This document shows, in pieces, positions 38,013 to 64,000 of a stretch of DNA of 64,000 bases (positions are counted from its first letter, which is position 1; the number at the start of each line of letters is the position of its first letter). The notes under the pieces are model-generated. The model was not told the origin of the DNA, searched no databases, and saw only the letters and a list, made by a program, of their open reading frames with translations. The translations under genes were made by a program, and so were the position numbers. Source of the DNA: Antedon mediterranea (Eukaryota; Echinodermata; Crinoidea; Comatulida; Antedonidae); the NCBI RefSeq assembly GCF_964355755.1, contig NC_092677.1:4717001-4781000 (forward strand). Direction: 5' to 3'.

Positions 38013-38997
38013 TGTAGGCCTTGGCCCTAAGGCCCACCCTAGAGTGTAATCTAGGCCTGCACTACGGTACTACAAAATTACTACAAGGGCTGGCCTATAG
38101 AAACGTGTAAACTGACTAATTTTTGCAGATTAATAATTCAATAAAACTGTTCTATTTCAGTGTTTTGTAGCTGTGTATTATTTTGTAATCTATTTTGCTA
38201 CGGTAAATGGTAAGATCATGATTGTTATTAAAAATTTTTATTTTTTTTTTAATTTCTTTTGTTTTATTTAGAAAAAAATGCGTATTATCTATTTATCGTC
38301 ACCGTCCTATACTAGTGTAAACAGGCATTTACAAAGAATTTTGTTTCAAAATTGCATGAAACAAATAGTTTATAGTCAACTCTATTATACACAGTAGTTA
38401 AAAAACATCCGTTAGGCAAAAACAGCTTGATGTCCGACAACCATTTTTAATGTATATAATGTATATATATCTAAATTACAGACTTCTAAGGCATTTTTTC
38501 TTCAGGTTACAGTACGCCATTTATTAGTATATTTTTGTATTAAAAATAAGTGCAATTTCCATGAACCTAGCATGGTGGGTCTGAGGTAAACACCCCATCA
38601 CACCTCCAAATATTTATGATACTTTCCAAAACTGCGTGATTCGTGAACAGATTTCTACTAGAATGTAATTTACAATAAAAAAAACAAATACCGGTAGCTA
38701 AAAACTCATTTTTCACAAGCATTTTTTCATTTATTTTCAAAAAGTAAAAATGACTTTGCATGCATAATAAGTTAAAACAGGCCAACAAAACCCAACTACA
38801 GTAATAATTAATAGTGGGTGTGCAAAATTTGTCCAGTTTGAATGAGCATTTTTTTTACTCTAAATTAATCATAATTCTTTGCTGTTCCTAACTGTATTTT
38901 CACTCTAATTATTATTTAACATACCATGTACAGTAGGCAAGCCCATCAACCATCTAGAAGTGTATTGTTAAATAAACTCATGATTTGGTATTTTCAG

Positions 38998-41900: not shown

Positions 41901-44900
41901 CTATTTCAATCGACTAGGACGGTGATAGTTTCAACAAAGTATTACATCGCAATGTTTTACTGTGTTTAGTGGTATATTATTTGTAAAACATGAAAGCAAT
42001 TAATATTTCGTTACTAAATGGATAAAGAATATATTTTAACATTGTTCCTCTTTGCACCCATCCTCTTCCCCATCCCTCAACCCTAATGTTACATACAAAA
42101 CACAAATTAAGTTTGTTTAAATTTGACTTAAACAATTGGTCTTATTTTGTGACAAGTTTCTCTTTCGGAAGTAATAGGGTGCTAATTTTAGTTGAGTACA
42201 TAAATCACAGTGTCTATTTATTCGTTCCTGTACACGACATGTATTATTGTCCTGCGGTACGTACATTTGAAATCGCCAGTTTTTTAACGCTGAAATTATT
42301 ATGTATTCGAGAACCATCTGTGGGCACGACCTAGATGGTACGCGAGCGTACCATCTAGTATATACAACTTAGGATTATGGTATAACACGGTATTACGATT
42401 TAATGTATTACTGCAAGGTTTTTGTGGGGTTGACCTTGGCCCGTGCAACACGCTAAAAATTAAAGACGTGTTCAAATTGAGGGTGTTGTATAAACACAGC
42501 CTTAGAGGATCCGAGTCTGTTTGCCTCAACAAGCACTGTCTATGAAGGTCAATCAGTGACCTTTACCTGTAGTAAATCTGCATAAAAGAATAAATATATA
42601 CATACAATGATTTAAAAACATGAATTTCACTTAATATGGTCAAATACAAAATTTGGCAAAATTCTTCCATAAAAACCAGGAAGACTTTTTTCAGTAGTTA
42701 GGTAGTTAACCTAATGTAATAACATGTTGGTGACTCCCTAGATGGTGAAAAAAGATGGTGGATATATGGTGGAGAATTTTTGCTATAGCATGAAAATAAA
42801 AATCTGAAGTTGAATAAAAATATCAGAAATGTAATATTCAAGTTATATTACCTATATTTAGTCATCTGATAACATTTTTTACCACACCGTTTATTTTTCA
42901 TAGCTTTTTAAAATGCCTCTCTATTTACAAAATGTGTGCACAAACGAATAGAGATTTTACTGTGTAATTTGAACTATCCCCCCACTGATAAGAAAGTGCT
43001 TATTTTCAACAAACTTGTGTAACACAAATAAAATCCCAAACATTATGAAACATAGGGGAAACTATAGATCGATAATTATTGGAATGTATGATCAATAGAA
43101 ATTTTTTGCCCGCACCTGGCCTTTAACAACATTTATGATTTTTACTCTGGAAAATCTATTCTTAAAATACAATTTATATTTTCTTCCTTTTAATAATCAG
43201 ACTTGGATCAACCACTTCTTGATGCCTCAGCAAGTACTGTCTATGAAGGTCAATCAGTGACCTTTACCTGTAGTATACCTGATGGTGATCCTATTCCTCA
43301 CATTACTTGGTATATAGATGGACAGACAGTCAACACCAACAACCCTTCTAGATATGAGATTACCAATAATAGTACAGGGTCAATTCTTAAGATTAAATCA
43401 GTTACTGGAGAGGATGATGCAGGGAGATATACATGTAAAGCAGAAAGTGATCAGTTTAAAGGAGAGGATGCTAAAACAAGTGGAGGAAAAGGCTTGAATA
43501 TAATTGTATATTGTATGTACAAAGTTAACTTTGGAGAATAAATCAATAATTTATCAATATTAAATCAATATTATTTTCATATGAATGATACACACATGCA
43601 TTATGTGGTCAATATTACTACAAAAAATGGTTTTATGACAACATTGTTATCATATCTAGTGTCTGCTATAAAACAATCATTCAATCAATGTAAAATTGTT
43701 TAATTTATGTCTTTTTTAGATATTAATGTTACATATGAATATAAAAGTGGATTTGCAACCTGTACAGCAGAGGGCCATCCTAAGCCATCATCAGTATTGA
43801 TATTACAAGATGGAGAAGAGGTTAAGAAAGAAAATAACACAGCAACTATAGAAATTAATGATGAGATATGTCAATCAAATCTTACATGTTATGCAGAGAA
43901 TGGAAATCTTAATAAAACAATGACACTAGAGAACTGTACAGAAGGTATACCAATTGTTTTACAGATAGTTTAGATATTTACTTTATTAATGTTCCTCAAT
44001 TTAAAAACTGAGACTTTGACTCATAGCATCTTTTAAATTCTTCTGCAAATAAGCTTCCGTCTAGGTTCAAATTTAGATCTAAGTAATCTTTTTGCACTGA
44101 TAAAGTCCCATAACATTAGGGCTTGACATAATGTGTAATTCTGTTGATTCAAATATTTGTGTTAAATCATCAAATGGCAATCTAACATGGTTGACAACAG
44201 TTTAGCTGGTGGTGTAATATATGTAGCATAGTAAAATTACTTTATAGTAGTTTAAGGGAGGAAGATGTTAAAAATATTATTACCAAGCTTCCTAACAAGA
44301 CCAGTCCCTTAGATCCCATTCCCACATGGATATTAAAGAGTTGTTCTGACGTTTTATTGCCGGTCATCAACTCTTTTGTAAATAATTATTTAAGTAAAGG
44401 GCCATTTCCAAAAATTCTTTGATTAAGAAATCAAAATTAAATCCAATGTTTTAAAGAATTATCGTCCAGTCTCTAACCTTCCTACCTTATGTAAGATTAT
44501 AGAGTATCCAGCCATTTCCTGCTTTATATGAGACGCATTGTGCCTCGATGGTGGAATTGCCTACATGATTGGGTTCGTGAGGCTTCTATTTTTGCAATAT
44601 TTTAGGAAACAACTTAAAACGCATCTTTTTCCAAAACTTTTGTAATTACCTCCGCCAAGGAGGTTATGTTTTCACCCCTGTATGTTTGGGTGTGTGTGTC
44701 TGTGAACAGCCTGGAGGCCACAGTTTTCATCCGAATCTGGCCAAATTTGGCCTCAACAGCTCGGACGAGTTCTATTGTGAAGGGGAAAGGTCATAGTTCA
44801 AGGTCACAGTTCAAGGTCACAACTAACAAAAACTATTTTACTGCCTAGAGACCACAGTTTTTATCCGATTCTCACCAAACTTAGCCACAATCATCAATGA

Positions 44901-47869
44901 CTCATCATATAACTGTAGTTAAACTGTGAAGGGTCAGGGTCAAAGATCAAGGTCCACAAAAAAAAACGAAAAAAAAGAAATAAAAAAAAAAAACCTCAGC
45001 AGGACTTGAACCAGCGATCTCAACTGTGAGAGGCTGGATAAATTACCATTGCACCAAACTCTCATCCACTTATTTGTAGTGTGCAGTTAGCCTATTTACA
45101 CTTAAAACTAAAAAAAAAATATTAAAAAATATATATTTTTTCCGGGGACATTTTATGTAGGGGAATTTTACAGTAGCGGAGGTTTGTACTCTCGGAGTAC
45201 CCTCTAGTTTGCAGATATATTAGACACACCCTAGGAAAATAATTTTAACCAGTGTCTATAAAAATCATATTGCTAGACTGTATGAGAGTATGTTTTTAGA
45301 AATATCATATCTAATTCAGTTACAATTTGAATAATGGTTTTTTTAAATTCAAGCAATAGTTTACTTCCAAAGAAACATTTCTTATACAACTTTAATGAAT
45401 ATAATAATGGAAGTGTAAATCATTTTATTAGGTATTTCAGAAGATTCAGGATCATTGTACATCATCCTAGTTGTTTTGATTGTTTGTCTGTTACTATGGA
45501 TACTGCTTCTTGTTTGTAAGTAAAATATCTTATCCCTAAATTATTATTTTAATTAGTTTACGTCTTTTTGAATAGCAAAGACAAATTCCATGGTATTCAA
45601 ATGTAAATTTATTATATTTTTAATTGCCCTTTACATTACTTTTTATGAATGTTGCTTCTCCTCTTAGAAAACATAAGACTATGTGTAAGGATAGAAGATA
45701 CAGATTATAATTTGATATGTAATTTATTTTTAGATTTTATGTATTACAAGAATATTGAGTGGAACAATACAGATATTAATACAGTGACAGTTGAAGGTGG
45801 TGAACCAGTTATGATGAGTTGGAAATACCGTCCAAGTATTGCAAGATTCAAGACTTTTGAAATAACAAAAGAAGACAAAGTGCTTGGTTCAAATCAAAAG
45901 CAATTCAGTAGTTGTAAAACCGTCTGTCAGTTTGTCTGTTATTGCTGTGCTTACTTTTGTGGATTCTTTTGTATTGAATACTGTGACAAATCATGTAAGT
46001 TATTACATATTTTTTATTTATCCTAAAGAAAGTATATTATTATTATTATATCATACCATTTTATTTGATGGGGTTTTTTTTCCATCATCATTTGAATAAT
46101 GTAATTATTAGTTTTTATTGTAATTGTTTTGACAATAATAAGATGTAATTTGTAAATAATGATTTTATATTCAATTTTCAATTAATTTAATTATTTTCCT
46201 TTTTAATGAAATGTTTTAGGTACAGTTTATACAATTCACTTTGTAGTAACATCTAGGGCATTTTAACAACGAGAGAAAATTGATTTGATTCTTAAAAACC
46301 CCAGCTGTATTTGTCCGATTTAATATATTCTATTAATAGTTAATACATTATACTCTTTTGTTTCATGTCATAGTTGAATACAACATTAAAGATAAAATGA
46401 AACATTTAAGCAGGTGAGTTTAGGTTTTTTCACCATTGTAACATGATGATAAGAAGTTGGTTTTCCAAGTGGTTAGGACACTTGACTGTCATATAGAGAG
46501 ACCTGGGTTCAATTCCCGACAACTCCCAGTTTACTCAGCTGTAAATGAGTACCTGGTTGAAAATACTAGAGAGGATAAGGCGGCGTGGAAAGAAACTGGC
46601 CACCCTACCACATAATGCCGAGGCTTAGTAAAATGAGCTCCTAACAGCTCATTCTTCTACGTTCAGAACCAAATACTGAACTTACCTTTTACCTAACATG
46701 ATTACATACATTATTTTTACTTTTTTAAATCTTAATATGAAAAAATCTCACAATATAGTATCAGATGAATGAAAGAGAATGTGCAGAAGTCTTGTAGTTT
46801 AATATTATTATCTTGTATTTCGTTCCCTATAGCAGTGGAAGTGGGGAAGAGTATTGGATGATGGTCACTGAAAGAGAACGTCCTGATGGTGCAGAGGTCC
46901 CTGCTGTTGTAATCAAATCAAGTTTACCTAAGCAGACTGCAGGAACTGAAGAAACTGCTGCACTTCCTAAATCTGGAGAGATAACAAAGGTTGGTAATAT
47001 GAGAGTAGTATAAAACTATTATTTGATTTTCAACTAACTTGAAAAGAATGAATAATTATCTATTGCATATCATATTGGTATATCTATCGTATATAAATAT
47101 CTACTTCCAAACTGTACTCTTAATTAAAATGCCATTATGTTGAAAAACAGTATATTAATATATCATAAATATAGCATTATCAAGTGCTTAAAAGTTTATG
47201 CCTAGCTATCTTGTCATGTACATTACATTTTCTGAATGTACAATTAGTCAAATTATCAAATTGGAACAACTGCCAAGGCAAGAAATTACCTACCACATGA
47301 TACAACCAACAATCAATATTTAAATTCTATGTATTTTACTGGGTTATTTATACATTATTTTAAAACATTCTTAAATGTAAAATCTGTTTCAATTTTGTTT
47401 TCAAAGACAAATACTGTTGATGAAGGTAGTGAACTTTTAGCAGAACATCAAGAAACATCTGGTGGGTATAAACTTTGCTATTTATTTATTCTCGTGATTA
47501 CTTCAGGTGGAACATGAATAGTTTATTTTTTACTTGATATGCATTCCAAAAAGTCCTGTTTCAGTAGAATTGAATGTATATCTCTTACTTCAATCAATCA
47601 ATCAATCAACTTAATTAATTTGTTTAGGTTGGTCTTACTCTTTTGTAGAATTTGTTTTTAATTGATTGTTACAGTAAACATTAACATTAACTATTCTGTC
47701 TCGGAAATTAAATTATTGTATTGTTGAAATTGCTAATGAAGTACAGGTTTATTTATTTTTTTATTTATTAGAAGTTATTAAGTTATTAATATTACAATAT
47801 CTATGTTGTTCTATCTTTATTTAAGGAGGACACTTCAACATCGGTCATACAGTAAGAATCTTTATTTAA
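38998..47869 (+). CDS. IgR8: Ig receptor with YxxM tail
   Basis: Plus-strand exons: V-type Ig 38998-39327, I-set-like Ig 43201-43512 (TFTCSIP, ITWYIDG, GRYTCKAES), third Ig 43720-43944 (CTAEGHPKP, LTCYAEN), transmembrane 45441-45515 (YIILVVLIVCLLLWILLLV), an uncertain exon 45734-45994, then tail exons 46374-46413, 46833-46989, 47407-47461 and a possible last exon 47826-47869 with TAA. Phases chain correctly (1-1 Ig exons; tail 1-2, 2-0, 0-1, 1-stop). The ectodomain is clearly homologous to IgR1-IgR7, but the transmembrane and tail are not. The tail has EEYWMM, a YxxM motif of the kind bound by PI3K p85, and no ITIM-like site. I could not identify the signal-peptide exon upstream of 38,998. 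The gene faces away from IgR7. Confidence 0.75.
40108..40733. mobile_element. Nested TTAA-flanked MITE
   Basis: TTAA at 40,104-40,107 and 40,734-40,737 flanks ends AGCCCCATTCCCTACG and (reversed) AGACCCCTTCCCTGCA. The interior holds a G+C-rich patch with TCCCAAAATGCATTGCGCG (40,270-40,288) and AGGCCT words. No coding capacity. Confidence 0.65.
42331..42358. repeat. Perfect 13-bp-arm palindrome
   Basis: CTAGATGGTACGC, two bases GA, then GCGTACCATCTAG, located close to the right end of the 39,834-42,501 transposon. Confidence 0.9.
42505..42582 (+). pseudogene. Relic I-set Ig exon
   Basis: It encodes a recognisable I-set start (STVYEGQSVTFTCSK) matching 43,230-43,275, then ends in TAA after three more codons and fades into intron. 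Its own acceptor and first five bases lie at 39,819-39,833, on the other side of a 2.7 kb transposon. It was therefore an additional I-set exon of IgR8, lying before the functional one at 43,201. Confidence 0.85.
44250..44645 (+). mobile_element. Non-LTR retrotransposon fragment (CR1/L2-like reverse transcriptase)
   Basis: The frame from 44,258 reads like the N-terminal part of a LINE reverse transcriptase (SPLDPIPTWILK), stops at 44,420, and resumes in another frame with KNYRPVSNLP near 44,455. The last 100 bases resemble the usual C-terminal end (KQLKTHLF) before 44,640. Large internal loss and frameshifts make it a dead fragment in the intron after the IgR8 third Ig exon. Confidence 0.75.
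44646..45208. mobile_element. CCTCCGCCAA repeat carrying a minus-strand tRNA-like part
   Basis: It starts TTACCTCCGCCAAGGAGG and ends with a CGGAGG...CCTCTAGT segment of opposite sense. On the minus strand, 45,064-44,996 has an A-box-like TGGTGCAATGG and the B-box GGTTCAAGTCC. Repeated TCAAGGTCA words lie near 44,795-44,820. It is a SINE-like or composite repeat; shorter relatives occur at 5404 and 17,723. Confidence 0.65.
45734..45994 (+). CDS. Uncertain IgR8 exon: part-Ig followed by Cys-rich hydrophobic stretch
   Basis: Open in phase 1-1 with acceptor TTTTTAG and donor GTAAGT, so it would splice to the same tail exon (46,374) as the transmembrane exon does. The first half resembles the start of the 59,150 Ig exon (TVEGGEPV against TVEGGNAR). 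The second half has eight cysteines in about 26 mostly hydrophobic residues (VCQFVCYCCAYFCGFFC). It could be an alternative membrane exon, or a decayed Ig plus membrane exon read out of its original frame. Confidence 0.4.
46456..46692 (+). mobile_element. tRNA-derived SINE
   Basis: The head resembles tRNA-Asp: CCAAGTGGTTAGGACAC (A box), TGTC in the anticodon region and the B box GGGTTCAATTCC. The body continues CAGCTGTAAATGAGTACCTG to about 46,690. It lies in an IgR8 tail intron on the same strand. Confidence 0.75.
47583..47611. repeat. (TCAA)n microsatellite
   Basis: Perfect or near-perfect TCAA repeats of about 20 bases after TTACTTC. Confidence 0.7.
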
Positions 47870-50800
47870 AAACTTTAAAAGCGCAGTAGCATGCACAAAA
47901 AAATGTTTGAATATTGTTATAGCTATTAAGTTATGCAATCACAATTTCTATGACAATAATTGTGTAAAGACATATACATCAATTCTGAAGCATTTATAGA
48001 AAATATAATCTGTGTCTATCTAGATTCCAGTATTAAAATTAAGTTTTTAAACATGTGAATATAATAATCCAAGCAATGTTGATTGAAGTGGTTATGGGCT
48101 GAGTGTAAGGCCGGTGTGCCGCAAAATAAAATATGTTCTTCATTGGTAAGAATTAGTCTTCTTGGACTGGATGTCCTGTTTACAAACCTGGTTTGTGAGA
48201 ACCCAGTGCATCCCAGTAGTGGTTACCCCATTGTACTTGGCCATCTACCCCTGTTTCACTTGTACACAATTTAGCCCAGTTACGCTGCAAGCTGGTATTT
48301 AGCACTTAGAGGTTTCATGACATCAGGCGCTTTATTAGTCCAGGATATTATTAAAATTTATTAAAAAGTCCCTCCAACCAAGATTTGAACCCGGACTACT
48401 GGGGCTTTTATGGTATTGTTCAAACCCCATTGGATAGCGACTCTTTCACTCTTGGTGTGGTACAGCCGAACAGCACTAGTCCTTAAATTGTACTCACCAG
48501 AGATCAAATTGATATTCCCTCATCTTTCAGTATTTTAAAGCAGGAACAATTTTTTTTTTCATTTTTGTTCTATATAATTTTGGAGATCATATGATGCTAA
48601 TGTGTTTTCTCTTAATTTTCAGCTTTTTACTTTTAAACCTATTTCTGTTGTGCAAGCTGGCTATAGTGATTCATACAGATGAACTAATATTGAATTTGTA
48701 TTATTATATAGTCTGTTTTAATCATTTGTTTGTGATCAACACTTTCATGAAAACATTTACAGTTATAGTACTCTTTATGGTTCTATATTTTCTAAAGGTT
48801 GTTGATTGATTGATTGAACAAAAATGTAATGTTGGCATAGAAGAAGTATCAATATTGTATAAACATAAATTTATAATATTTTTATTTATAAATTAAGATT
48901 ACGTATGTATTAGGTATAGTTAAAACAAAGACAATGACCACTCAAACTCCAAACTGTACAGTATAGTTTTGTTTTTTGCTATACCATCATCACAGCTGTA
49001 TTGTCTAAGTGTTGTATTATTTTTCACTGTTATGATGAATTTTCATAAAAAATTGACTTTATAAATGGGAAGACCGACTAAAATTACATCAGAAGTATAA
49101 TTTTACAAAAGTAATTGATATGGTTAATGATAACGAGTCGTCGGAAGATGGACCATTTCACGAATTTCCTATTTTGTAACCACAGTGTGATTTTGCCGTA
49201 GCTGCACTTGTAATCTGGCCTGATTTCACAGCCTTCTTTCTGCTTCACTGGGCGCTTATATTAATTGAAACTTTTACCGTTAAAGAGACAAACAAATATA
49301 TTTTACATTTTTAACTATTCATTTTAAACCCGGAACCCCCCTTTAAGTGTTGTATTATTTTTTATTTAATGTTCTAGCTAAAGACTTGAATGAAAGGTAA
49401 TGTTTTTCGGTATTTGATATTTATTTATTGGGATTTTTTTATGTTAAAGATATGTACTGCCAGCAAATCTCTTTTTTTGTCCATTTACCCATTATTATGC
49501 AAAATTACACAAATAACCTTTCACTAACATATAAAACTTCATTTATTATATGAAGTATTTCATGCTATGTGACCAAAGATTTACTACAGCCATTTCTATT
49601 TCTTTCACTAATTTAAAACCTCTCTGGGTATGTACAACACATCTACATCCATGCAAAGCTAGTGAAATGCTCATAGTTTTTTTCCTCTATGAGAATTGCC
49701 ACAACCTTACATGACACCAAACCCTTTTATAATTTACAAGCCATGAATAATGGAGAATTTCAGATTCTTCAGATCAGCAAAAAAAACCCCAAAATAACAT
49801 AATGTGAATAAGATTCTTCTATGCTTAATTCATGTGCATGCTTTTTTACAAAACATTTTATGCGCCAATGTTGAAGAACAGCCAATGAGCAACCTTTTTT
49901 TCTCTTCTTTGGCAAACAATTGTGTTTAGTTTTTTAGTTGTTTTTGTTTTTTTGTGGCAATTTATCTTTATCGGTTTTAGGGTTTGCCTGACTAATTTGG
50001 TAGTTTACCTTTTTCCTTTAATTTTCAACTGTTGCTAATAATATTTTACATACTTGGTTTGCTATATACTTACCATAGATTATATACTGTCCTTACTGTA
50101 TATCCTGTCTGTGTTTGTGCTTTGGTTGCAGTCTTAATCTACAAAATACACAATTTGTTTACATTGATAGAGTATACACATTGCCATTCACTTGCTTCAT
50201 TCTGCCCTTTTATATTACTTCTAATATGATTAATTGTCATATTCAGAATCATGTATTATCATATACATTTCTTCAGTAGTTTGCCATTATCTGTATCTGT
50301 TATATTATTTGATTCAAAACTCATTACCATATTATTACATTGAATATTATTTTATATTACATTTTTTTTATAACTTTAATTGGGTATTGCTAGCTTGGTG
50401 CATCTTATTTTCTTCTGTATTTTAAACACAAACTTTGCTTTTATTGTATAAAACCTCATTAAAATAGTATCTACAGTATATATACATTTACATAAGGGCA
50501 AAATTAGTATACAAATAATGTTTATGAATGGGGAGAATTTCTTGTATCGCATGTTAAACTAAATAGATAATTTTGAAATAAATAATTATATTTCATTTTT
50601 CACTTTATTAAAGATAAAATGTGTATGATTTCAAGTTGTCATCCATTAATTGGACAAGCAAAAAGAAATATAATTAAATTATTCTTTTATTTACACCTTT
50701 CTTGAAAGCTGTTATATGTACATTTATATGTCAAAAGATCAACTTATATCATTTATTATAATTGTAATTTGCAATTTAAATTGTTCAAAATTACCTGTTA

Positions 50801-51673
50801 TATGACCACAACAGAAATGAATAAATAATACATTTTTATTCCTTATTTTACATAATCATTGGTTTAATTTGTAACTTTCGACTGATTGATAGAATTAGTC
50901 AAATTTACATACATAGAAATTATTTAGTTTAAAAGTTATATATATAGTAGATCATATCACTACTTTCACTGTCAGTCCATTTAGCTGAAACTTTTTTTTT
51001 CATAAAATGTTAATGTTAACATTCATTGTGACTTTTAAAAAAAATATTATTTATTCAATTATGTAGTCTACTTAATGTGTAACATTTATCATTACAAATA
51101 ATAATAAATCAGTTAGATTGTAGAGTGAAAGATCAATGAACTCGTTTCAGCATCATTTCTAAATCCTATATTTTTCCCTGATTTATTATAATGTGTATTT
51201 GGTTTTTTTTCAGATCTAAAACTTCTTACTCAGGTAAGTAACATTATTTTTTTTTTAATGCAATTTTGTTTTACTATTGTACAATACTAGATTTACCTTC
51301 ATTGTGACACTACTTCATTTACATAATGCATATGCCCAAAGTAATTATTAAATACACAAATTAGATGCATTTAAATGAATTATTTGTTTTTTCAAAAAAA
51401 ATAAATTAAAAAATGTTTTCTATTAAAGTAATATTTCTGAAAGCCATCATATTAATGAACTTACTTTTAGAAGAGAAATTATAAAATGAAACTCTTGACA
51501 CACTGAAGGGCCATTCATACAATTTCAGTGAAATGGTGAATGTACTGATGTATAGACAACATCAATTAACCATTTTTTTTTTTTACTTTTACAATTAAAA
51601 GTACTAAAATGAAGAAATTAAATTTTAGATGACTTTATTTAATGATATTTTGTTTGTTTTTGTGTTTTTTAAG
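47870..51673. other. Interval between IgR8 and the Ig-sialidase gene
   Basis: A 3.8 kb A+T-rich stretch. It contains a weak tRNA-like piece on the minus strand at about 48,470-48,369 (GGGTTCAAATCT B box) and possible tiny exons, for example 51,213-51,233 between CAG and GTAAGT. No promoter or signal peptide for the downstream gene could be assigned, so its 5' exons may be here unrecognised, or it may be joined to IgR8. Confidence 0.4.
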
Positions 51674-51805
51674 TGGCTACAAATGGTAGAGGAAGAATCA
51701 GCCTAACGGTTTCAAATCCTGTGAGATCTGATTCAGGAGAGTACAACTGCAATATAGAGGGCAGTAGACAGCAGTATACAGGTGTCAACAATTTATCTGT
51801 TTATT
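51674..51805 (+). CDS. Half-Ig exon (C-terminal strands of a V-type domain)
   Basis: It begins at [10 protein letters not shown] and runs through [11 protein letters not shown] to NLSVYC, matching only the second half of the V-type exon of the IgR family (NGRFKLNI...FQCEI...LTVYC). It is 132 nt, phase 1-1, donor GTAAGT. The first cysteine and the Trp strand are absent. It is either a remnant of a full V exon or a split exon whose first half was not found. Confidence 0.55.
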
Positions 51806-54800
51806 GTAAGTTTTATTTTGAATTTAAATTAAATAGGTTTTTTTTTTCATTGAGATCCAGCTACTGATACAGCGTTGTCAATTTTGTTTAGTAATTTGCC
51901 TGTGTATTTATTGTATTAGTAGGCTATACATAATATAAATTAACACGCACAGAATAAATCTTAAACTGCCTGGTGAAAATTTAATTAATTTGAAAAGATA
52001 AAGATGAGAAAATCTGTAATAATAAGAAAAATGTTGCCCCAACCGTAGTACAACAGGCCCGTAGCCGGGGGGGGGGGGGGGGGGGGGGGGGGGTTTGATA
52101 GTTCGGGCGAACCCTCTTTTACAGAGAACTCCCTTAAACCGACTACGAACCCCCATCCCCAACATGCCCAATACACCCATCTCTGAAAATCCTCCAAATA
52201 CGTGCCCCACTGTACAAAAGGTTATTTGTAAATTAAAAAATTTGTAAACTCGTTCGTGAATAACTCGTACCTCCTTCTGTATGAGTATATGTCGATCGAG
52301 CGATACGTGTCTCCAAATTTCAATTTTTTTTATTTTTTTTTTTACCTGAAAAATAAATATGAATTTTCTGTCACTGGATACAACGAGCTAGGCCATGAAC
52401 GATTCGTACAATTTCACCACCAAAAAACCGCGTACCTATTGTTTAGATTACTGGCAGTCAGCATGCATAAAGTATATAGCCTTCCGACGTACATCAAAAT
52501 GCTGCGGTTAGCTACAGTATTTGTGTGTGGCTATGAAGTATAGTGTGTCATCATCAACTATATCAATACCACCTCTTTACATTGATATATTTAATTTCCG
52601 CAACAAATTGCTGTAAATAAATATAGCTAGAGCTGTGCATTGAATGCCTTCTTACCCAAAATGTTCTTTTTCAGAGCTTCCCCTAGATGCATTGACTGGA
52701 AAAAAATACAGAGTGAACGATCAAACAATCTGACCAACAATCGGCGGTTCCACACAGAACACATGCATCCAACATACGGCAACAAAATGTTATCGTCCAT
52801 GCTATGTTGCATGAGAGTGTCCAATTATCATGAATTTTATGTGCAAAAGAGTACCATTTTTGGCCATCTAGGGGTGTCATGTAACAAAATTCGCTAAGTG
52901 ACCCAAATACTTAGTGTCCGAATCCCCCCCCCCCCCCCACCTTGACAGATCCTCGCTACGGCCCTGTACAACATTATATTATACTTGTCATATTCATTAA
53001 ATTAATATTTGTACTATATATATTTTTTAAGGGATTGAGATGGTAGCTCCCAAGTACTCAACAAAACGTGATGTCAGTAATGTTGAAATGAAGTGCAGAT
53101 ATGGACCATCAGATATGCCATTAATATGTTACAAGTGGAAGAAGATTAGGAAAGATGGCACAACAGAGATTGAGGATTGTGAAAAAGATTCTAGATTTGA
53201 AGTAACAAGTTGCCAAAATAACATTCTGTCTTTGAAGATAAAGAATGTTATACTTGGTGATGCTGGGATGTATCAATGTGAAGTGAAGCCAGTTAATGGA
53301 GGACAAATACTGAAAGATACTACACATCTGACAGTGAAGGAAGGTAATTTGTGTTTATTTACATTTACCACAGCCTCCCAATTTTGTGTGTGAATTAAAT
53401 TGTTCAGTTAAAATGATAAGTTAGTTAATGTTACAATTTTACCATCATTTCAAACATCTAAGGGTGTGTGTGAAAAAATAAAAGAATTTTTTCAGGTATC
53501 CAAATGTTTCTTGGGTTGGTGCAAAATTGAGATTTTTGAGTAGAAGTTCCATGTGTAGAAGGCTTTGCATGTGGGTGTCCCAGTCCACCTCCACACAGGG
53601 CAGTAAAACTGATCACTTGTTTTAATCAATAGAAAAGTACACATATTTTTGAGAATCTTTATTTTTATTAATCTACTTTTATTATAAACAATTGCTTTTG
53701 AAGAATTATTATCTCTGTCTTGTTTTTATAGATGCCATCAAAATTGACATTCCTGATGTTATTACCAATGAAAGTTTGAATGTTAAATTATTCTTAAACC
53801 TAACATATGTTGATGATTCTGCTGCAATATCCAATGTCACGTGGTATAAGCATTTTGAGGATGAAGCAAAGGAGCGGCTGACATCATTACAGCCACCATA
53901 TTCAACACCACGCTGTCAAAGCGCATATGAGGACAAGAGTAAGGTGTACCTTAAGATCAACAATGTTGAATCTGAAGATGCAAGAAAATACACATGCGAA
54001 GTGCAAGTTGAAGGAAGACAGAAAATATACAAGTGTTTTGGGAGGTTAGAAGTTCAAGGTAATATACTACAATATTATCATTATTGTAACTGCCCTAAAA
54101 ATAATGCGAGTGATATTCGTTATTCAAGTCCAACACCCAAGGTGCTCCTTTATTCCTGTTTCTTGAATGTGAACCAGATTACTAAAACAAAACATAACAA
54201 CGACCTATAAATGCATGTCTAGCAATATATGTGGCTCCTCAAGCGTCAAACTGAAAAGTTTTGTATTTAAGTTAAAACAAACAATATAAAAGACGATCCC
54301 TTAAACTAATTAAAAATGCAAAACCGTGTCGTCATAGCAACGGATAACAAAATCCTTGCGGTTAACTCCTCCTACAACGACGCGACACCTACATGCTAAA
54401 AACATTGCCATTGTACAGCTATACGTAAATCAATTAAAATGATCACATGAACTATAAAGTTTTGCGAAGATTATCATAACTATAGTATCCAGGTGCTTAA
54501 TGCAATGCAGTAACTTTAACAATGAATTATTAATACTAATACTTAGTAAATGATTAAATTAAGATACAACAGGTCAAAGCCATATCTCATCAATATATAT
54601 ACAGTAGGCCTAGGCCTAGCTAGGTAACATAACCGAAATTAATGGCGTCTCAATAGAACTTTGCCTAATAACATTAAATCTGTATGAGTTATTGATCAAT
54701 AAATGTAGCGGAATGCAGCTTACCAAAAATAGCAAAGTCACCCGCTATCTGCAGTACATAAACAATTCAGGTAAATATCAAAATTTAAACAATGTATGTC

Positions 54801-57800
54801 AATATCCTATAATTAAAGTCACTAGCTGTGATCATACATCCTCTGCTCTCTAATGCAAGATACCTCCTCACATGGTCCTAAAATGACGTCATTTTCTTAA
54901 TAATGCGCCCTCTCTAAATATTTAAAACTAGTTTGGGACCAAACATCCCGGCCCCTCTATTGCTATACTGAATTAAGGCATTAGCAAACATAGTTAACAA
55001 TTTAACAATAAATAAATTAATGTAACAACAATTTAACAATCTATTAAACAGCATCTGAACTACTGACTCTGCCTCCAGAATCACAACCAACTTCGTGATG
55101 GGCCGTACCAGTTCAGCGCTTGCAGTTCTCAGCTTAACCGATCTCACCAGTCCTCTTGCATCCTTATAAACTTCCAACACTCTTGCCATTGGCCACTGTC
55201 CTCTTGAGGAATTCTCCGCAATTATAACAATGTCTTCTACATCCACATTTCTACGCTCTTTAAACCATTTCTGACGCTCCATCAATGTTGCCAAATACTC
55301 CTTCCTCCATCTTTTCCAGAATACATTAACTCAGGTATTGCGCCTGTCTCCATCTCTTACGATATACATCTGCCTCACTGAATATACCTGGAGCAGGTAT
55401 ATAATCTGCTTGTGCCAGTAACAGGTGATTCGGCGTTAGTGGGCGATCTTCCTTAGGATCATCAGACAGCATTGTCAATGGCCGTCCGTTAACAATCGCC
55501 TCCACCTCACAAAACAATGTCCTCAGACCTTCATCATTTAGTTTTATTGTCTGCTCCTTTAACAATCCATATAACACCTTTCTTTTATCGATCTGATCAT
55601 TCTTTCCCAGACTCCCCCTTGGTGGGAGGCAGCTGGAGGATTAAATCTCCAATCTATTCCGTCTCGTCTTAATACTGTGTGAATCTGTGTGTTGTTCCAT
55701 TCTTTCATTCCCTTTCTTAGCTCCTTGTCGGCTCCTACTAAATTGGTTCTGTTGTCCGACAGCATGTATCTTACAGCACCTCGTCTGGCAATAAATCGCC
55801 TTACAGCATTTATACAGGAGTCCGTATCTAGCGAATCAGCCATTTCTAGATGAATCGCTCGTGTATTGAATTGAAGCATGTGAACACAACTCCGTACCGT
55901 TTTAAGACTGTCCTTCCTCTTTTGATTTCTATTGGACCAAAGTAGTCAACTCCAGATCTGGTAAACGGCTTCTCTCCGCTCATTAATCTTAAGCTTTGGT
56001 AATTCAGACATTTTCTGGGTCTCCAAACGTCCATTATACCTACGACAAGTAACACACCTTGAGAGAATACTCTTTGTCAACTTAAGTGCTCTTGTCACCC
56101 AATACTTCTCTCTGAATCTTGCTAGTACGGCATTCCTTCCTACATGACCCATGCGTTGGTGAATATCATTGATTATTATACCAGCAACTATGGATGTTTT
56201 TAGAAGCAATATTGGGTGTTTAGCTTCTAATGGTATAGATGCTCCTGCTATTCTTCCACCCACTCTGATGATTCCCTTTTCATCCTTAAAGGGGTCCAAC
56301 TTAAATGTGTCTTTGCCCATAGGTAGTTTTGAAGTTTCCAACTGCAGATATCTTATTATTTCTGTCTCAGCGGCATCAAGCTCTGAGCTTGTTATTGGCT
56401 CAATCCTTCTTACTCTTCCCTTTGGTGGTGTACGGGTTTTGCAACGTTGCATTAAATTACCCTTGACTCGAAGCATCCAAGCGACAAACACCTTTAACCG
56501 GCTCCAACTAGAAAATCTTCCAAACAATGATTCAATATAATGACATGAATTAACTGTTGCTGCTGCTGCATATTTTACATCTGGGTCACTTATTGACAGC
56601 AAAGCCATTCCTAGGTTTCCCTTGTCTTCTTGGTTTCTTAAGAACACCGGCCCCTTTAGCCACATTTCAACCTCCACCTTCTTGCTTAAGTGCATACCTC
56701 GTGAAGCTATGTCTGCAGGATTATTTGCAGTATCCACGTGTCTCCACTGCTCGCACTCACTTCCTTCGTGAATGATTGATCACCTATTTGCTGCAAAGGT
56801 GCTAAATCTTGTTTTGTTGTTTCTTATGTAGTTTATAACTAGCATGCTATCGGTCCAGAATATTACTCTTTTGAATGTGGTGTCAACTTCTTCTCGAACT
56901 AGACTTGCACATTTAACTGCTAGAGTTGCAGCGGTTAATTCTAGTCTGGGAATCGTCATCTTCTTAAGAGGTGCCACTCTTGATCGTCCATAAAGTATGT
57001 TACTGTCGATCGTTTCTCCTACCTGCGACCGCACATATATAGCAACTCCATAACCATTTTCGCTTGCGTCCGCAAACACGTGAAGTTCTTGGTCGGTTCT
57101 AAGTTTACATGTAATAAACCTGGGCACACGCAATTCCTCAACTAGAGGTAAGCTCTCTAGCCAGCGTTTCCACCTACGTAATTCATTTCCCTCCAACTGG
57201 ATTATTCCAATTCTTGCCTTTCTTGATTAGTTCTTGAAGAAGAATCTTAGGTGTTAACATCACGGGCGATGCCAGTCCCATAGGATCAAACACCGAGCTT
57301 ATTGTAGATAATATGCCCCTTCGGGTACATGGCTGCTCTGTGATACTGGAAAGCTGATAACATAGACAGTCACTCATTGGGTCCCATTGCACTCCAAGTG
57401 CCCTTTCGCTTGGAATTCCTTCTTCCTTAAATGCTAGGGCTTGTAGTTCCTTTGATCTGTTCTCTACTGGAACAGAGTTGATGACATCTCGTCTGTTACT
57501 GGTCCATTTACCTAGATTAAACCCGCCTTTTGCACAGAGTTCCTTAAGGTTTTTTACCATATTTATACCATCAGATGTTGATCCAACTGACTTTAAGCAA
57601 TCATCAACATAGAAGTTGCGTAGTAACGTCTGCGAGACTTCATCTTCTGTACTTGGTCTATTGTCTAAAGCTGTTTGTCTTAAAAACAATATATTGGCGC
57701 AAGCAGGAGAAGACGCTGCTCCAAACAAATGTGCTGTCTTTCTATACTCCACTGGTTGCTGGTTGACATCTCCTTCTGCCACCAGAAAAATCTCATATAG

Positions 57801-59020
57801 TCTCTATCTTTCACTGGCACCTTCACTTGGTGAAACATGGCCTCAATGTCGGCCATTATAGCGACTGGGTCTTCTCGAAACCTCAGTAAGACTCCTACTA
57901 AACTGTTTGTCATATTAGGTCCTGGGAGTAATAGATTGTTGAGAGATGTTCCCTGAAATTCGGCTGCACAATCGAAGACAACACGTATCTTCCCTGGTTT
58001 GTGTGGGTTATATACTCCATGATGTGGTATGTACCAGGTCTTTCCTATCGTCGGTTCGATATTGTCTACCTTTTCAGCAAATCCTTTCTGTATAAGTTTT
58101 CTCATAAACTCTTGGTAGTCGTATTGGAACTCCTGGTTTCGACGCAGTTTTTTTTTCAAGCATTCCAGTCTCTTAACTGCCATAAACCTATTATTGAGAA
58201 GTATTGGCGTTTCTTCTCTAAATGGCAGATCGATGTGGTAGTGTCCATTAATGAGACGGATGCTATTGTTGACCTTTGAAACGAACAACTTATCCTCTCT
58301 CGACGGTTGTTTTGCAGGAAAATCTAGTTCAGTGTCCTGAGGGGCGGATCCAGACATTTTTGAGAGGGGGGGGGGGGGGGTCCGCCGATAAAAAGGGCAC
58401 ATCAGATATTGAGTATTTGAGCCACAGCCCCCCCCCCCCATGGTGGGGGTTGTGGCGAAGCGAATTTTGTTACAGGACACACTATGGCGCAATTTGTTTA
58501 CAACGTTCGTGGCTAAAAACGATCATTTTCGGAAATGTTTTAGACCCTATATTTCGAAAACTACAAGTCAGATTTTCGTAATTCTTTCTTTATTGGAATA
58601 TTGAAACAAAATACCAACAGATAATGTTTAAATTGGTTGAAAAATAACAACTTTTAATTTTGCATCGTTATCCCTGCTAATAAAGTGTCATTTCCGGCGA
58701 ACTAGAAAGGTGCCATTTATCATAGATTTTGCGTGCGAGAGTGCCATTTCCGGCCATCTAAGTGTATCTGGTGGGTGAAAATCTGTGATAATACCATACA
58801 TGGCTCTGTGGTCTAGTGGTATGATACTCGCCCTGTAAGCGAGAGGTTGCAGGTTCGAATCCAGCCAGAGACATTTTTTCATACAACTAAAAAATATGGA
58901 ACTTTCGCCAATGAGCTATGCTCGACGCGATTATGAGATCATGTTCCGAATATGAGCACTGTTTCTATAATTTACAGTATGATTTATATATAATTTACAC
59001 AGTGCTACGCAACATCATTG

Positions 59021-59054
<34 letters not shown>

Positions 59055-62000
59055 TTTCAGTATATTTGATCTGAATATTCTAGCTTTACAAGTGTGCAAA
59101 AAAAAAAATGTAGAGGCTCTCTACTTGAAACGCTGTTTATATATTACAGGTCCAGTTTTAACAATGGAAAATAAAGAACTGCACACTGTTGAAGGAGGAA
59201 ATGCAAGAATTCCTTTTTATGTCTCGCCAATACAAAAACAAATTAACAAATTTATTTTTTATAAATTTGAAAAGGAAATTGCTGATAGTCTTACAATTTT
59301 TCGGAGATTTAAAATTAAATATAGTGAGGACAAGCTGACAGGTTTCCTTGAAATTTCTAATGTTAAATCTTCTGATGCTGGTGACTACCGTTGCAAATGT
59401 GTGATAGAAGGAAAGGATGTTTACTCTACAAAAAGCAGGTTGGAAGTTACCAAAGCCTGTAAGTATATAATATTAGGCCAAACAAAGATTTGTTTGCCCA
59501 CCATTCTTGAAAATTGTTCAAAGGATTGGTTGGGGAGGGGGAATTTTTTCTCCGTAATTGAGGACTTCTCATAAATTGTCAAACAAAATAAACATAAATA
59601 AATAAATAAATCATTTTGTTTGACAAATCCAAAAGAAATTACTCACATTCTTTAGCTTTCACCATCTTGGCTGATGGCTTGATCATCATCATAATTCATC
59701 AGTTCAGTCTGTCGTTCTGTGCTGTGTACACATGGGTAAGAGTGAAGTGATGGATCAATTGCGACTGACATGTAAGCGTTTCAGAATCAAAATATGAGAA
59801 GCGTACTGAATATTTCTAATCAATGCAATTCTTTATAGACCTAATAATATTATTCTGGCCCTTGACTTTCTGTGTGTGTGCGTGTGTGTGTGAATAGAAG
59901 TAGGGGGTGGTTCCAAATGAGTTATAAAGAATTAGCATCACCTTGCTTTATCTTGTGTTTTCTTCAAAGTATGAAATCTTTTACCAAAATTCATAATCAG
60001 AAATTAAAAACATTTTATACTACGGTATATCTTTATTGTTAATTTGTTTAATTTATTGCACTATAGCAGCACCTATGATATGCTAAGTACGTTAAGTTTG
60101 TTTTTAGTCAACTGAAGTTCTGTATTTTAAATAATGAAATACATCTTTACATCTTGCATGCCCGGTACAAAAAGACATTATTACCTGATAAACTTCTTTT
60201 TTGTCTGAAAATAATATTAATTCATATATTTTAATCACCAATAAGAAATACACATTCAAATATTACTTTTATATCATGATATTTGTTTTTGTTTTTTTCT
60301 GTTGAAATGTTTTGGTACTATTGTATAATATTATTGTGATAGTAATTCCATCTAAAATATACTATTTCTACTTTTAGATATAAGACTCAATGATGGTCTT
60401 GTGATGAATGGGGAAAAGGCAGTTTTAACTTGCAAGTATGGACTTGACAATCAAGTGAAATATGTCAATTGGTATAAAAAGACTGGTGATGAATCTCAAG
60501 AGGAGAAGATAGAAAAAGTACCAGAAAGATGTAAAGTAACTCATGATAGGCTTAATCAAACAAGCTTAGAGTTCCAAGAAGTGACATTGGCTGATGCTGG
60601 GGAGTACATATGTGAACTTACAACTGCTACAGAAATAACCAAAGGCAAACTTTCAGAAACACATACATCATCTGCACACCTGCATGTACAGTGTAAGTAA
60701 AAATTGTGTATTTAAGCTGGTTATTAAACAATCGAATTGTGTAAAGCAGGTAGTAGTTTCACCTAATATAGTGTAATTGGCTTTTCTCTATGCTTTGGTA
60801 ATATCAGGGAAGAATACAGTATATTCAATTTTCTTAAATACCCAAACGATAGTCGGCCTACAGGAACTATTTTGTTTGGATATTCCATAATGAATATTGT
60901 CATATGATTTCAAACTGTTAATAAATTCATTGTATAATATTGTTACCGTATGTGTATATTGTAAACTGATTTCATCAAAACACCTTTAGATATTAAACTG
61001 AATGATTGTCTTGCGACACATGGAGATAAAGCTGTTTTAACTTGCAAGTATGGAATTGAAAATCAAGTAAAATATGTCAATTGGTATAAGAAGACTGCTG
61101 ATCAAGACATAATGATATTTACTTCTGATAAGTCTCAAGAGAAGAAGATAAAAAAAGCACCAGAAGGATGTAAAGCAATTTTTAAAGAAAATGAATCAAG
61201 CTTAGTGTTTGAGCAAGTTTCGTTAGCTGATGCTGGAGAGTACATGTGTAAAGTGAAGGAAAAACTTCCATCACATACAGCATCAGCACACTTGCATGTA
61301 CAGTGTAAGTTGATTTCTACATAATATGCATTTTAAAATTGATATTAAAACAATTGATTGACTTGATGAATATAGTTAAAAATACCTATGTTGATCTGAA
61401 GGAAATATGATATCTCTCAGATGAATTACTGTAATTGTAGGGTATAGTTTGATTAATTGAATGTTGTTTCCAACTTTGATGTACTGTATAATCCACAGTT
61501 AATTGTAAAGACTTGAAAAAAGTTATCATGTTGGACGTCAACCTTCAGATCACTAACCTGGAACTCGTACCTTTAGCTCACATAGCTTGCACATATAATC
61601 ATTGTTTATGAGTTGTCAAAATAATTTACTTTATTCAAGTAGGGAGTTGTAATTACAATTTAATAATGATTTTTGTGATGTTTTCAAGAGGGGGTCGAAC
61701 ATGATTTAATTCCATGATTCAAGGAAATATATACATTATTTTAGTAGATTTAATTGTTATTCAATTAATGTTGAAAGCTAGGCTGATGCAACATTTGGTA
61801 CTTTCTTTTCGACTGGTGGAGTAGGAAAATTGAACTGGGTTAGTATTGGAATTCATAACAAATTATGACACCTAGCTTGTATTTCATTTTCATTCCCTTA
61901 TTTTTATAGGCGATGTGTTTACTGAACAAGTTAAAACAAGGTAAATTGATTTCCATTCAAAAAAAAAAAATGTTTTTCTATTTTAATTTTGAAAGTCAAG

Positions 62001-63879
62001 GTTTGAATTTGACTTTAAAATAACTTCTTGAGTTGAGAGAATTATCTTGAAATTGTACTGAAATTTATCTTTTTAGACACCCTGCGGTAGTCTTTATAAA
62101 TTCTCACTTTATCATCTTTTGTGAAGAAAACAACTCAGATGTGATAATGAGAAGAGGAAAATTGAATGGCAAGAGTTTGATTGAATGGAAAAAAGCAAAA
62201 ATAATTTTTAATGAAAAGGAGACATGGTAATTAGTATTGTGTTGACCGACATTGGCAAACATTGTTTGCTGGTTATAATGTTTCTAGTACATTTAGATAA
62301 GTAATCAATTATTCATTTTGTTTCATTTTCTATGATATTACCATTGACATTAATATCAAAGAACATTTGTAAATTGTATTTAGAAACAATGACGGTACAA
62401 AAGATGTCTCCAAAAAGTGGACAAAGTTGATTGTAAAAATGTAAAACATTTTTTTAATAATTCTACAAATTTACTATACAGCTTTCAGAATCTAGTACCA
62501 ATTGTGACAGATAAGGAAAATGGAAAAATGACTCTAATGTGTGTTAGACAAAATAACAACACAAAAGAGAGGAAGATAATAAGGATGAAATCTGATGATA
62601 ATGGAGTCAACTGGACAGAACCAGAAGATGTACAATTGGATTTGAAAGGCTTACCCATATATTTTATAAGTTAGTATAAGTTAATTAGTTTTTATTGAAG
62701 TTGATATTAAATATCTGAGCTGTACATCATGGTTTTGAATATGAATTAGTCATATTCAAAACCATTATGTTAGTTTTTTCTGTTATTTAAATTTTTTCTA
62801 ATGTCAGTACAAGTATTACCATTTACATTATAAACCCATTTACTGATACCATACACAAGAAGCAACAATTTAAACAACCAATTTTACACAAATGTTTTAT
62901 GTACTTACCAAAATACTGATTTGTTATAGGGTTTTTTTTTGTTTAAAGTTTTTTAATAAACATTTGTATAAAGAAAATGTTTACTTTTATCTATCTTGAT
63001 TTTAATATATATATGTTTTACTTTATGTAGTAAACAGTATAAATGTACTGCAGTAATCAATGTGTAATTATATGTATAAATTGTTTTTCAGGCCTTGGTG
63101 ATGGTGTATGCTTACATTCAGGAAAATTGGTTGTTGCAGGAGTTTGGACGCTAAAGGATAATGAAAGCATAGAAAGTAATTTATTTAAATGATCTTTATA
63201 GAATTAAGAAGGTGCTCAAATATTTATTATGTACATAAGGTGATCGTTCGGTTCCTTAAATGAATATATTTGTTTTGGATATGTCAAAGATCTTTGAACT
63301 CCTCAAGTCTCTCACTTGAATTGTGTCATATGTGAACCATGCATTAAATCTTAATTTGAATTCAATAAAAATGCATCACAATGACCCAAGAACAGCAGTT
63401 GATCTAAACATTTGTTTCTGTTTATAAAGTCCAGTACTATAGCAATCTGCATGGGGAGATAATAGCTAACTAAAATGCGTTTTTCATGTTTATGGTTTCA
63501 AGTTGGCCATGTTATTTTTATTGTTAATATTTGTTTATTTTTCAGAAAAACTGTTTGTGATGACTGGTACTAATGATGGTGACACCTGGGATATTGTTAC
63601 TGCTGTTAAATCACCCTATGCTACTTTAGGAGGACACACACAAGTAAGAAACTTATAAATGCCCAGGGTTTCATTTCTAATGATCATATTTCAGTGCCAT
63701 TTTGTCATACAGTAATGTAATTTGTTTATTAGGTTTTTGAATATGCAAATGACAATGTTTACATCAGCTGTTCATTGGAGGACTGTAAACAACGTTTCCG
63801 TGTGTACGGTGATGAAGGATTTAGAACGTTTAATGTCAAGACTGAGGATGCACAATTAGAGACAAATCCAGAGTGCCAG
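51674..63879 (+). CDS. Multi-Ig sialidase (NEU family), 3' end outside window
   Basis: Exons in order: half-Ig 51674-51805; Ig 53032-53343; Ig 53732-54058; Ig 59150-59458; Ig 60378-60692; Ig 60990-61304; linker 61910-61940; sialidase exons 62077-62226, 62482-62669, 63092-63175, 63546-63643 and 63733-63879, with donor GTATTC after the last. The Ig exons are phase 1-1, and the linker and catalytic exons chain 1-2, 2-2, 2-1, 1-1, 1-0, 0-0 without a stop. The sialidase part shows RHP (the RIP/FRIP position), MRRG, the Asp boxes SDDNGVNW and TNDGDTW, and TQVFEY at the position of the conserved catalytic Glu of animal NEU enzymes. Exo-sialidases cleave terminal sialic acid; multiple Ig domains would tether or target it. 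The remaining catalytic Arg and Tyr should lie beyond base 64,000. Whether the half-Ig exon belongs is uncertain. Confidence 0.78.
52055..52965. mobile_element. DNA transposon with AGGCCCGTAGCC ends and poly-G/poly-C
   Basis: AGGCCCGTAGCC at the left and GCTACGGCCCT at the right are inverted, flanked by the 7-bp direct repeat GTACAAC (52,048-52,054 and 52,966-52,972). A pure G run of about 25 follows the left end and a C run of about 14 precedes the right end. It lies in an intron of the Ig-sialidase gene. No transposase was recognised. Confidence 0.75.
53032..53343 (+). CDS. Ig exon 1 of the Ig-sialidase gene
   Basis: Phase 1-1 exon. Ig landmarks are [14 protein letters not shown] and DAGMYQCEV, with additional cysteines (DCEKD, TSCQN) that could form a second disulfide. 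Acceptor TTTTTAAG, donor GTAATT. Confidence 0.82.
53732..54058 (+). CDS. Ig exon 2 of the Ig-sialidase gene
   Basis: Phase 1-1 exon with VTWYKH and [10 protein letters not shown]. The canonical first cysteine is replaced (KLFLNLTY), while extra cysteines RCQSAY and YKCFG are present, so the usual disulfide cannot form as in a standard Ig. Confidence 0.8.
55060..56737 (-). pseudogene. BEL/Pao integrase region, broken into four frames
   Basis: 56,737-55,946 carries the zinc-binding HxnH (HQRMGH) and CVTC pairs. About 55,985-55,880 has GVDYFGPI with the first catalytic Asp. 55,879-55,559 has the second Asp in LSDNRTN, where Arg replaces the usual Gly, and the Glu in HQGGVWERM. 55,577-55,326 and 55,294-55,060 carry the C-terminal part with NGRPLT and GQWPMARV. 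Several frameshifts. Confidence 0.85.
56780..57196 (-). pseudogene. BEL/Pao RNase H segment
   Basis: Contains [12 protein letters not shown] (the first catalytic Asp context of RNase H), RLELTAA and FWTDSMLV. It is separated by frame from the reverse transcriptase and from the following segment. Confidence 0.85.
57183..58337 (-). pseudogene. BEL/Pao reverse transcriptase, frameshifted
   Basis: An upstream segment (58,337 to about 57,785) holds the fingers region with YIPHHGVY and RVVFDCAA. A second frame (57,782-57,183) holds the palm with FYVDD. The break falls near 57,785. Confidence 0.85.
58338..58770. mobile_element. CTGAGGGGCGGATCC repeat with poly-G, right boundary unclear
   Basis: It starts CTGAGGGGCGGATCCAGAC, has a G run of about 15 and a C run of about 9, then shares a GTGCCATTTCCGGCCATCTA-like stretch with the element at 52,055-52,965 (compare TTTTGGCCATCTAG near 52,860). 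It abuts the broken 5' end of the BEL/Pao element. Confidence 0.5.
58802..58873 (+). tRNA. tRNA-like gene, anticodon TGT position but C33
   Basis: A 72-nt cloverleaf can be drawn. The acceptor GGCTCTG/CAGAGAC has 6 of 7 pairs, the anticodon stem CTCGC/GCGAG has 5 of 5 with loop CCTGTAA, and the T arm GCAGG TTCGAAT CCAGC has 4 of 5. A TTTTTT Pol III terminator follows at 58,874-58,879. The loop would place TGT (Thr) at 34-36 but has C instead of the near-universal T at position 33. The body resembles tRNA-Pro (TGGTCTAG, GGTATGAT). It could be a functional variant, a recent pseudogene or a SINE head. Confidence 0.6.
59024..59050. repeat. (AT)n microsatellite
   Basis: About 13 AT units just upstream of the Ig exon at 59,150. 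Confidence 0.85.
59150..59458 (+). CDS. Ig exon 3 of the Ig-sialidase gene
   Basis: Phase 1-1, acceptor ATATTACAG, donor [17 protein letters not shown] and DAGDYRCKC give the Ig pattern. The first cysteine and Trp are replaced, so the domain is divergent. Part of it resembles the uncertain IgR8 exon at 45,734. Confidence 0.78.
60378..60692 (+). CDS. Ig exon 4 of the Ig-sialidase gene
   Basis: Canonical landmarks [15 protein letters not shown] and DAGEYICEL, ending SAHLHVQC. Phase 1-1 with donor GTAAGT. Closely related to the next exon. Confidence 0.88.
60990..61304 (+). CDS. Ig exon 5 of the Ig-sialidase gene (tandem duplicate of exon 4)
   Basis: [24 protein letters not shown] and SAHLHVQC match exon 4 closely, and both are 315 nt. 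This copy has an insertion-like stretch after the C strand ([10 protein letters not shown]) and a shorter F-G region. It is a recent single-exon duplication. Confidence 0.88.
61910..63879 (+). CDS. Sialidase catalytic module (partial)
   Basis: Linker 61910-61940, then 62077-62226 (RHPAVVF, MRRG), 62482-62669 (two-strand blade, Asp box SDDNGVNW), 63092-63175 ([13 protein letters not shown], which aligns with the conserved GPGH...Q.GRL strand of NEU proteins), 63546-63643 (Asp box TNDGDTW) and 63733-63879 (TQVFEY, NPECQ at the place of the conserved GCQGS). The YREW-type segment that carries another conserved Glu in animal NEU enzymes is not seen between 62,640 and 63,100. About half of a normal NEU domain lies in view. 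Confidence 0.75.
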
Positions 63880-64000
63880 GTATTCTCTACAATATAATTT
63901 TTTTTTTATTTGTTGAAGTGTTGAATGTTCTTGAGTTGTAAACTCGGCCCTAAGGCCGTTTTTGACTTACTTTAGTATCCACATATAAACAAACTAAATT

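Follow-up and report, generated by a model that had tools for sequence, protein, structure and literature searches.

Invertebrates fuse immunoglobulin (Ig) domains to lectin-type domains in expandable recognition proteins. Siglecs and the amphioxus VCBPs, Ig proteins of V type, have links to glycan recognition or immunity, and to our knowledge none of them carries a sialidase-fold domain. In the snail Biomphalaria, FREPs combine Ig with a fibrinogen lectin domain, and 39 of the 73 FReD genes are FREPs (PMC7588048). In sialidases, three arginines, a tyrosine/glutamate pair and an aspartate are strictly essential and highly conserved; the survey of metazoan sialidases that states this, with two sea urchins included, does not contain the word immunoglobulin (PMC3431349). 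A fold of sialidase type can also serve a non-enzymatic role, as in CyRPA of Plasmodium, which is six-bladed and has no catalytic residues (PMC5349852). A search of the open literature retrieved no report of a protein composed of Ig and sialidase domains. As this search was partial, the novelty of the Ig-sialidase architecture described below is provisional.

The window, a stretch of 64,000 nucleotides from the crinoid Antedon mediterranea (bases 4,717,001-4,781,000 of contig C8), was read on the plus strand together with 19 kb of downstream sequence, and the whole genome (354 Mb in 18 contigs) was searched. An earlier note on this DNA had described Ig exons that run in continuous phase into the exons of a sialidase. 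All exons named there were recovered by a splice-site search, in a frame of 15 exons that stays open for about 980 codons, from Ig1 to the stop codon of the sialidase part, with AG/GT borders throughout (Table 1). The search gave eight near-identical variants, which differ from one another only in the choice among alternative splice sites of the Ig exons. The Ig part consists of five complete Ig exons, each entered two bases into a codon and exited one base into the next, and of an exon coding for the 3' half of an Ig domain; from here the phase remains open into seven sialidase exons. The seventh of them, E7 (locus L005), lies just beyond the window end and terminates with TAA.

Comparison of the window copy with Pfam returned BNR_2 (E=1.4e-14 over 259 residues) and, in the same continuous reading frame, V-set in the Ig adjoining the sialidase part (E=4.1e-10), with more Ig matches further upstream. 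Cysteine pairs are retained in Ig2, Ig5 and Ig6. The sialidase motifs reported for this copy are all present: the RxP arginine, whose codon is split across 61940/62077 (R|HP), the MRRG sequence and two Asp boxes (SDDNGVNW and TNDGDTW), to which E7 adds a third, SEDGCKTW. The intron between Ig3 and Ig4 (54059-59149) harbors a degenerate BEL/Pao-type retroelement at 55000-58400 (-), with Pfam matches to Peptidase_A17 (E=8.9e-12) and Integrase_H2C2 (E=1.9e-8); beside it lies a tRNA-like sequence, 58801-58873 (+), read by eye only.

Table 1. Exons of the window copy and of the module upstream of it, numbered from the first base of the window.
Feature	Position	Strand	Remarks
IgA exon, upstream three-Ig module	38997..39332	+	tblastn to paralogous IgA exons, translation; same gene uncertain
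IgB exon, upstream module	43197..43517	+	
IgC exon, upstream module	43704..43940	+	limits approximate
Transmembrane exon SLYIILVVLIVCLLLWILLLVC	45434..45516	+	hydropathy 3.65
Candidate signal-peptide exon, doubtful	45590..45650	+	in phase
Ig1a (Ig1 5' half)	45734..45994	+	conserved donors at 45908 and 45995
Short acidic exon, conserved, tail-like	46833..46980	+	limits approximate
Short exon, conserved, dileucine-type motif	47407..47466	+	limits approximate
Candidate micro-exon, conserved	49378..49396	+	19 nt
Candidate micro-exon, conserved	51214..51233	+	20 nt
Ig1b (Ig1 3' half)	51674..51805	+	half-domain exon, splice model
Ig2	53032..53343	+	splice model
Ig3	53732..54058	+	splice model
Ig4	59150..59458	+	splice model
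Ig5	60378..60692	+	splice model
Ig6	60990..61304	+	Pfam, splice model
E1, linker exon	61910..61940	+	ends with first two bases of the R|HP Arg codon; conserved in 11 copies
E2, sialidase exon	62077..62226	+	HPAVV...MRRG
E3, sialidase exon	62482..62669	+	Asp box 1
E4, sialidase exon	63092..63175	+	
E5, sialidase exon	63546..63643	+	Asp box 2; ends HTQ, His at catalytic Glu position
E6, sialidase exon	63733..63879	+	Ser at second catalytic Arg position
E7, last sialidase exon	64469-64768		beyond window; stop codon

Protein search of the genome produced 86 exon matches. Nineteen of these are terminal exons: one belongs to C3, and the other 18 fall within 4.78-5.76 Mb of C8, distributed over both strands. 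Seventeen regions and four upstream extensions were taken for exon modelling. E2 was modelled in 14 copies besides that of the window, and every one of them is preceded by Ig exons on its own strand; the order of Ig followed by sialidase was found in nearly every readable copy. Ig1a occurs 19 times genome-wide, and in most copies it alternates along the chromosome with the terminal sialidase exon. Conservation of the E1 linker extends to 11 copies, all of which have the split AGA codon of the arginine in identical position. Since the genome contains the Ig-sialidase exon set about 19 times, the set is not a product of chance, and since its order recurs in nearly every readable copy, the fusion presents a conserved, tandemly expanded architecture. 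The unusual architecture that had been noticed in one copy thus stands on firmer ground than a single locus could give. Both the spliceable open frame and its repetition across the cluster were computed directly from the sequence, and we regard the repeated exon order as the strongest support, short of cDNA, for one putative Ig-sialidase transcript.

For the sialidase exons no start codon of their own was found; the earlier note had named one as an observation that would speak against the fusion. An in-frame stop is situated 22-58 nt upstream of E1 in each of the 11 copies checked, so translation through E1 cannot begin far upstream of it in the unspliced frame. The stretch between this stop and E1 contains no in-frame ATG in eight copies, among them the window copy, where the stop lies at 37 nt; an ATG is present in the remaining three. 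A terminal exon between 61,304 and 61,910, which would likewise separate the two parts, is conceivable short of cDNA, but the linker that follows it would then be hard to match with its conservation in 11 copies.

Several relatives depart from this plan. In L027, L031 and L032, E5 is split and an extra Asp-box-like sequence, STDNLNSWELL, appears, which is possibly an additional propeller strand or loop. A copy of Ig1a, Ig1b and Ig2 is located at C4:12,706,711-12,716,215, with no sialidase exons detected on C4; it may be an Ig-only relative, or its sialidase part may be too diverged. About 40 Ig2-type exons are densely arrayed at C8:5,088,031-5,090,377 (+) and 5,120,984-5,142,002 (-). They seem to repeat at intervals of roughly 3.2 kb, and their frames are mostly open; no sialidase exons were detected near them on that strand. 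The array could represent a giant Ig gene, a set of alternative exons, a recent amplification or an effect of assembly.

A family alignment and profile were built from ten assembled sialidase-domain proteins. Among solved sialidases the profile matches NanI (E=1.3e-6) and Sialidase-2 (NEU2; E=3.2e-5), and its match to CyRPA is weak (E about 0.011). The C-terminal domain matched only BNR_2 and BNR_3 in Pfam, and for this reason the family is not FREP. Like the animal NEU sialidases (GH33; NEU1-NEU5), it has the Asp-box propeller signature, the first arginine and the nucleophilic tyrosine; unlike them, it is fused to Ig domains, exists in about 19 copies and is devoid of the aspartate, the glutamate and two arginines. 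Canonical NEU1-type genes of the same genome, located on C5, were used as alignment reference. A phase-0 intron placed directly after a conserved glutamine is common to these genes and to the family, and the alignment anchored on it equates E-V-Q|IVEL...NAR of NEU1 with H-T-Q|VFEY...SCS of the family. As the intron is shared, the columns of the Glu to His and Arg to Ser replacements are fixed.

The former active site is preserved only in part. The first arginine of the triad (RIP motif) is kept in 11 copies, encoded by the split AGA codon, with IP changed to HP in most, and the nucleophilic tyrosine is invariant in the family alignment. In the copies aligned, the catalytic glutamate is replaced by an invariant histidine, three residues from the shared intron. 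In the copies read, the second arginine is replaced by serine, threonine or leucine (NAR becoming SCS, ICT, RCL and related sequences), and no arginine stands at the site of the third when they are aligned with the NEU1-type genes. The loop that bears the acid/base aspartate is 7-8 residues shorter than in NEU1 by alignment, where a case could be made for a remaining SD. Of the catalytic tyrosine and arginine that had been expected past base 64,000, the tyrosine is there and the arginine is absent. The domain therefore looks like a pseudo-sialidase, as judged from aligned residues, with the propeller apparently kept as a binding module. CyRPA offers a precedent for such a loss; it differs in having no Ig domains and in its unrelated organism, and it and the family probably lost activity independently.

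The earlier note had gone further and suggested an active, Ig-tethered enzyme, with sialic acids of self or of microbes as the possible target of its editing. The sialidase-like profile, the first arginine, the tyrosine and the Asp boxes are what one would expect of such an enzyme. Against it stand the shortened aspartate loop, the histidine in place of glutamate and the lack of two of the three GH33/NEU arginines in the copies read; because these are the residues described as essential (PMC3431349), we reject activity as the leading reading and consider it very unlikely. With the residues for cutting gone, the domain is more likely to recognise some ligand than to cut sialic acid, and the invariant histidine and tyrosine of the former active site could perform an altered chemistry instead of none. 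Scarcely probable, too, is that the cluster consists of decaying pseudogenes left after gene duplication. Some copies are indeed broken or partial (L022, L023, L024, which is without E4, and the second copy at L034), but in about ten the sialidase frames are fully open and the splice sites conserved at dS of 0.1-0.5. Pairwise dN/dS in the sialidase exons ranges from 0.48 to 0.71 in 11 of 12 comparisons and reaches 0.91 in one very recent pair. From dN/dS below 1 and the absence of stops in about ten copies it follows that the proteins are maintained. E7 is unusually uniform among paralogs, with a median identity to the window copy of 84% (50-65% for E2-E6) and low dS, which suggests gene conversion as the likely cause.

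The protein model of the window copy has no TM-like segment after its first 30 residues; its signal exon is not conserved and the transmembrane exon lies upstream. The Ig1a block is conserved in 12 copies and ends exactly at GTAAGT; when its proximal donor is joined to Ig1b, a V-set match spans the junction (E=1.3e-5, just under the Pfam cut-off). A strongly hydrophobic (transmembrane) exon upstream of Ig1a is conserved in 11 of the 12 copies compared, and in the C3 copy, as in most of those on C8, Ig1a is preceded on its strand by an IgB/IgC pair. The small acidic exons and micro-exons that follow Ig1a look like a cytoplasmic tail. The exon at 45590, tried as a source of the signal peptide, fits the phase but is unrecognisable in other copies, which makes it doubtful. 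The conserved Ig module, the transmembrane exon and the short tail-like exons that precede the copies may therefore belong to a membrane-bound isoform or to a receptor gene that was duplicated along with them.

Standalone three-Ig receptors, in which IgA-IgB-IgC is followed by a transmembrane exon of another kind, fill the window, where their family is interleaved at 688-31182 (-) and 38997-43949 (+). Further members lie past the window end at 70.3-71.3 kb (-) and at 81.3-82.0 kb (+). C8 contains many additional copies between 4.70 and 5.78 Mb, and more weakly matching relatives at 1.08-1.66 Mb.

The limits of the gene can be drawn in two ways. To one of them we give slightly less than even chances: two co-duplicated genes, an upstream IgA-IgB-IgC-TM-tail receptor and a separate Ig-sialidase gene starting at 45.5-51.7 kb. 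A receptor-like exon series precedes most copies and standalone three-Ig receptors are present in the window, both in agreement with this division, though no conserved start or signal-peptide exon occurs between the transmembrane exon and Ig1b, the candidate at 45590 being unconserved. The other, which we hold to be a real, if minority, possibility, is a single long gene that reaches from IgA to E7 and by alternative splicing produces either a membrane receptor or, by skipping of the transmembrane and tail exons, an Ig-sialidase isoform. Skipping is permitted by the phase 1-1 Ig and transmembrane exons, the modules pair one to one in the C3 copy and in most of those on C8, and Ig1a has two conserved donors; the tail-like exons, however, are not all of phase 1-1. 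Either arrangement is compatible with a recognition protein built on a pseudo-sialidase.

We therefore favor, as the probable explanation of this family, tandemly expanded genes that splice several extracellular Ig domains onto a C-terminal sialidase-fold propeller devoid of its active site, the whole putatively acting as a recognition protein. N-glycosylation sequons that recur in the sialidase-fold domain, together with cysteine pairs in three Ig domains, are consistent with an extracellular location. The propeller is predicted to be kept as a binding surface of pseudo-sialidase or lectin-like nature, for which the Ig array may provide reach or multimerisation. Duplication and the rapid change of the proteins (dN/dS of about 0.5-0.7 for most pairs) may diversify this surface. 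The position inside a dense Ig receptor cluster, the copy number and the rate of change point to a role in immune or self/non-self recognition. More tentatively, the family is a candidate for a hitherto undescribed class of diversified invertebrate recognition receptors, in which Ig arrays would bear a pseudo-sialidase as binding head and one locus would yield both membrane and soluble forms for immunity or allorecognition.

The nearest analogue in manner of working is presented by the snail FREPs, likewise a multigene family, in which Ig is placed N-terminally to a lectin-type domain; the crinoid family differs in its C-terminal sialidase-fold propeller, putatively lectin-like, which stands in place of fibrinogen, and in a possible membrane isoform. 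The Ig-lectin plan as such is already known, and the sialidase-fold head domain is, provisionally, the new part. If a sialidase-fold pseudoenzyme does serve as a recognition head, it would be an addition to the known binding scaffolds and an example of an enzyme that has become a receptor, for which the cluster, with about nineteen paralogs and comparable propeller faces, offers a direct test set.
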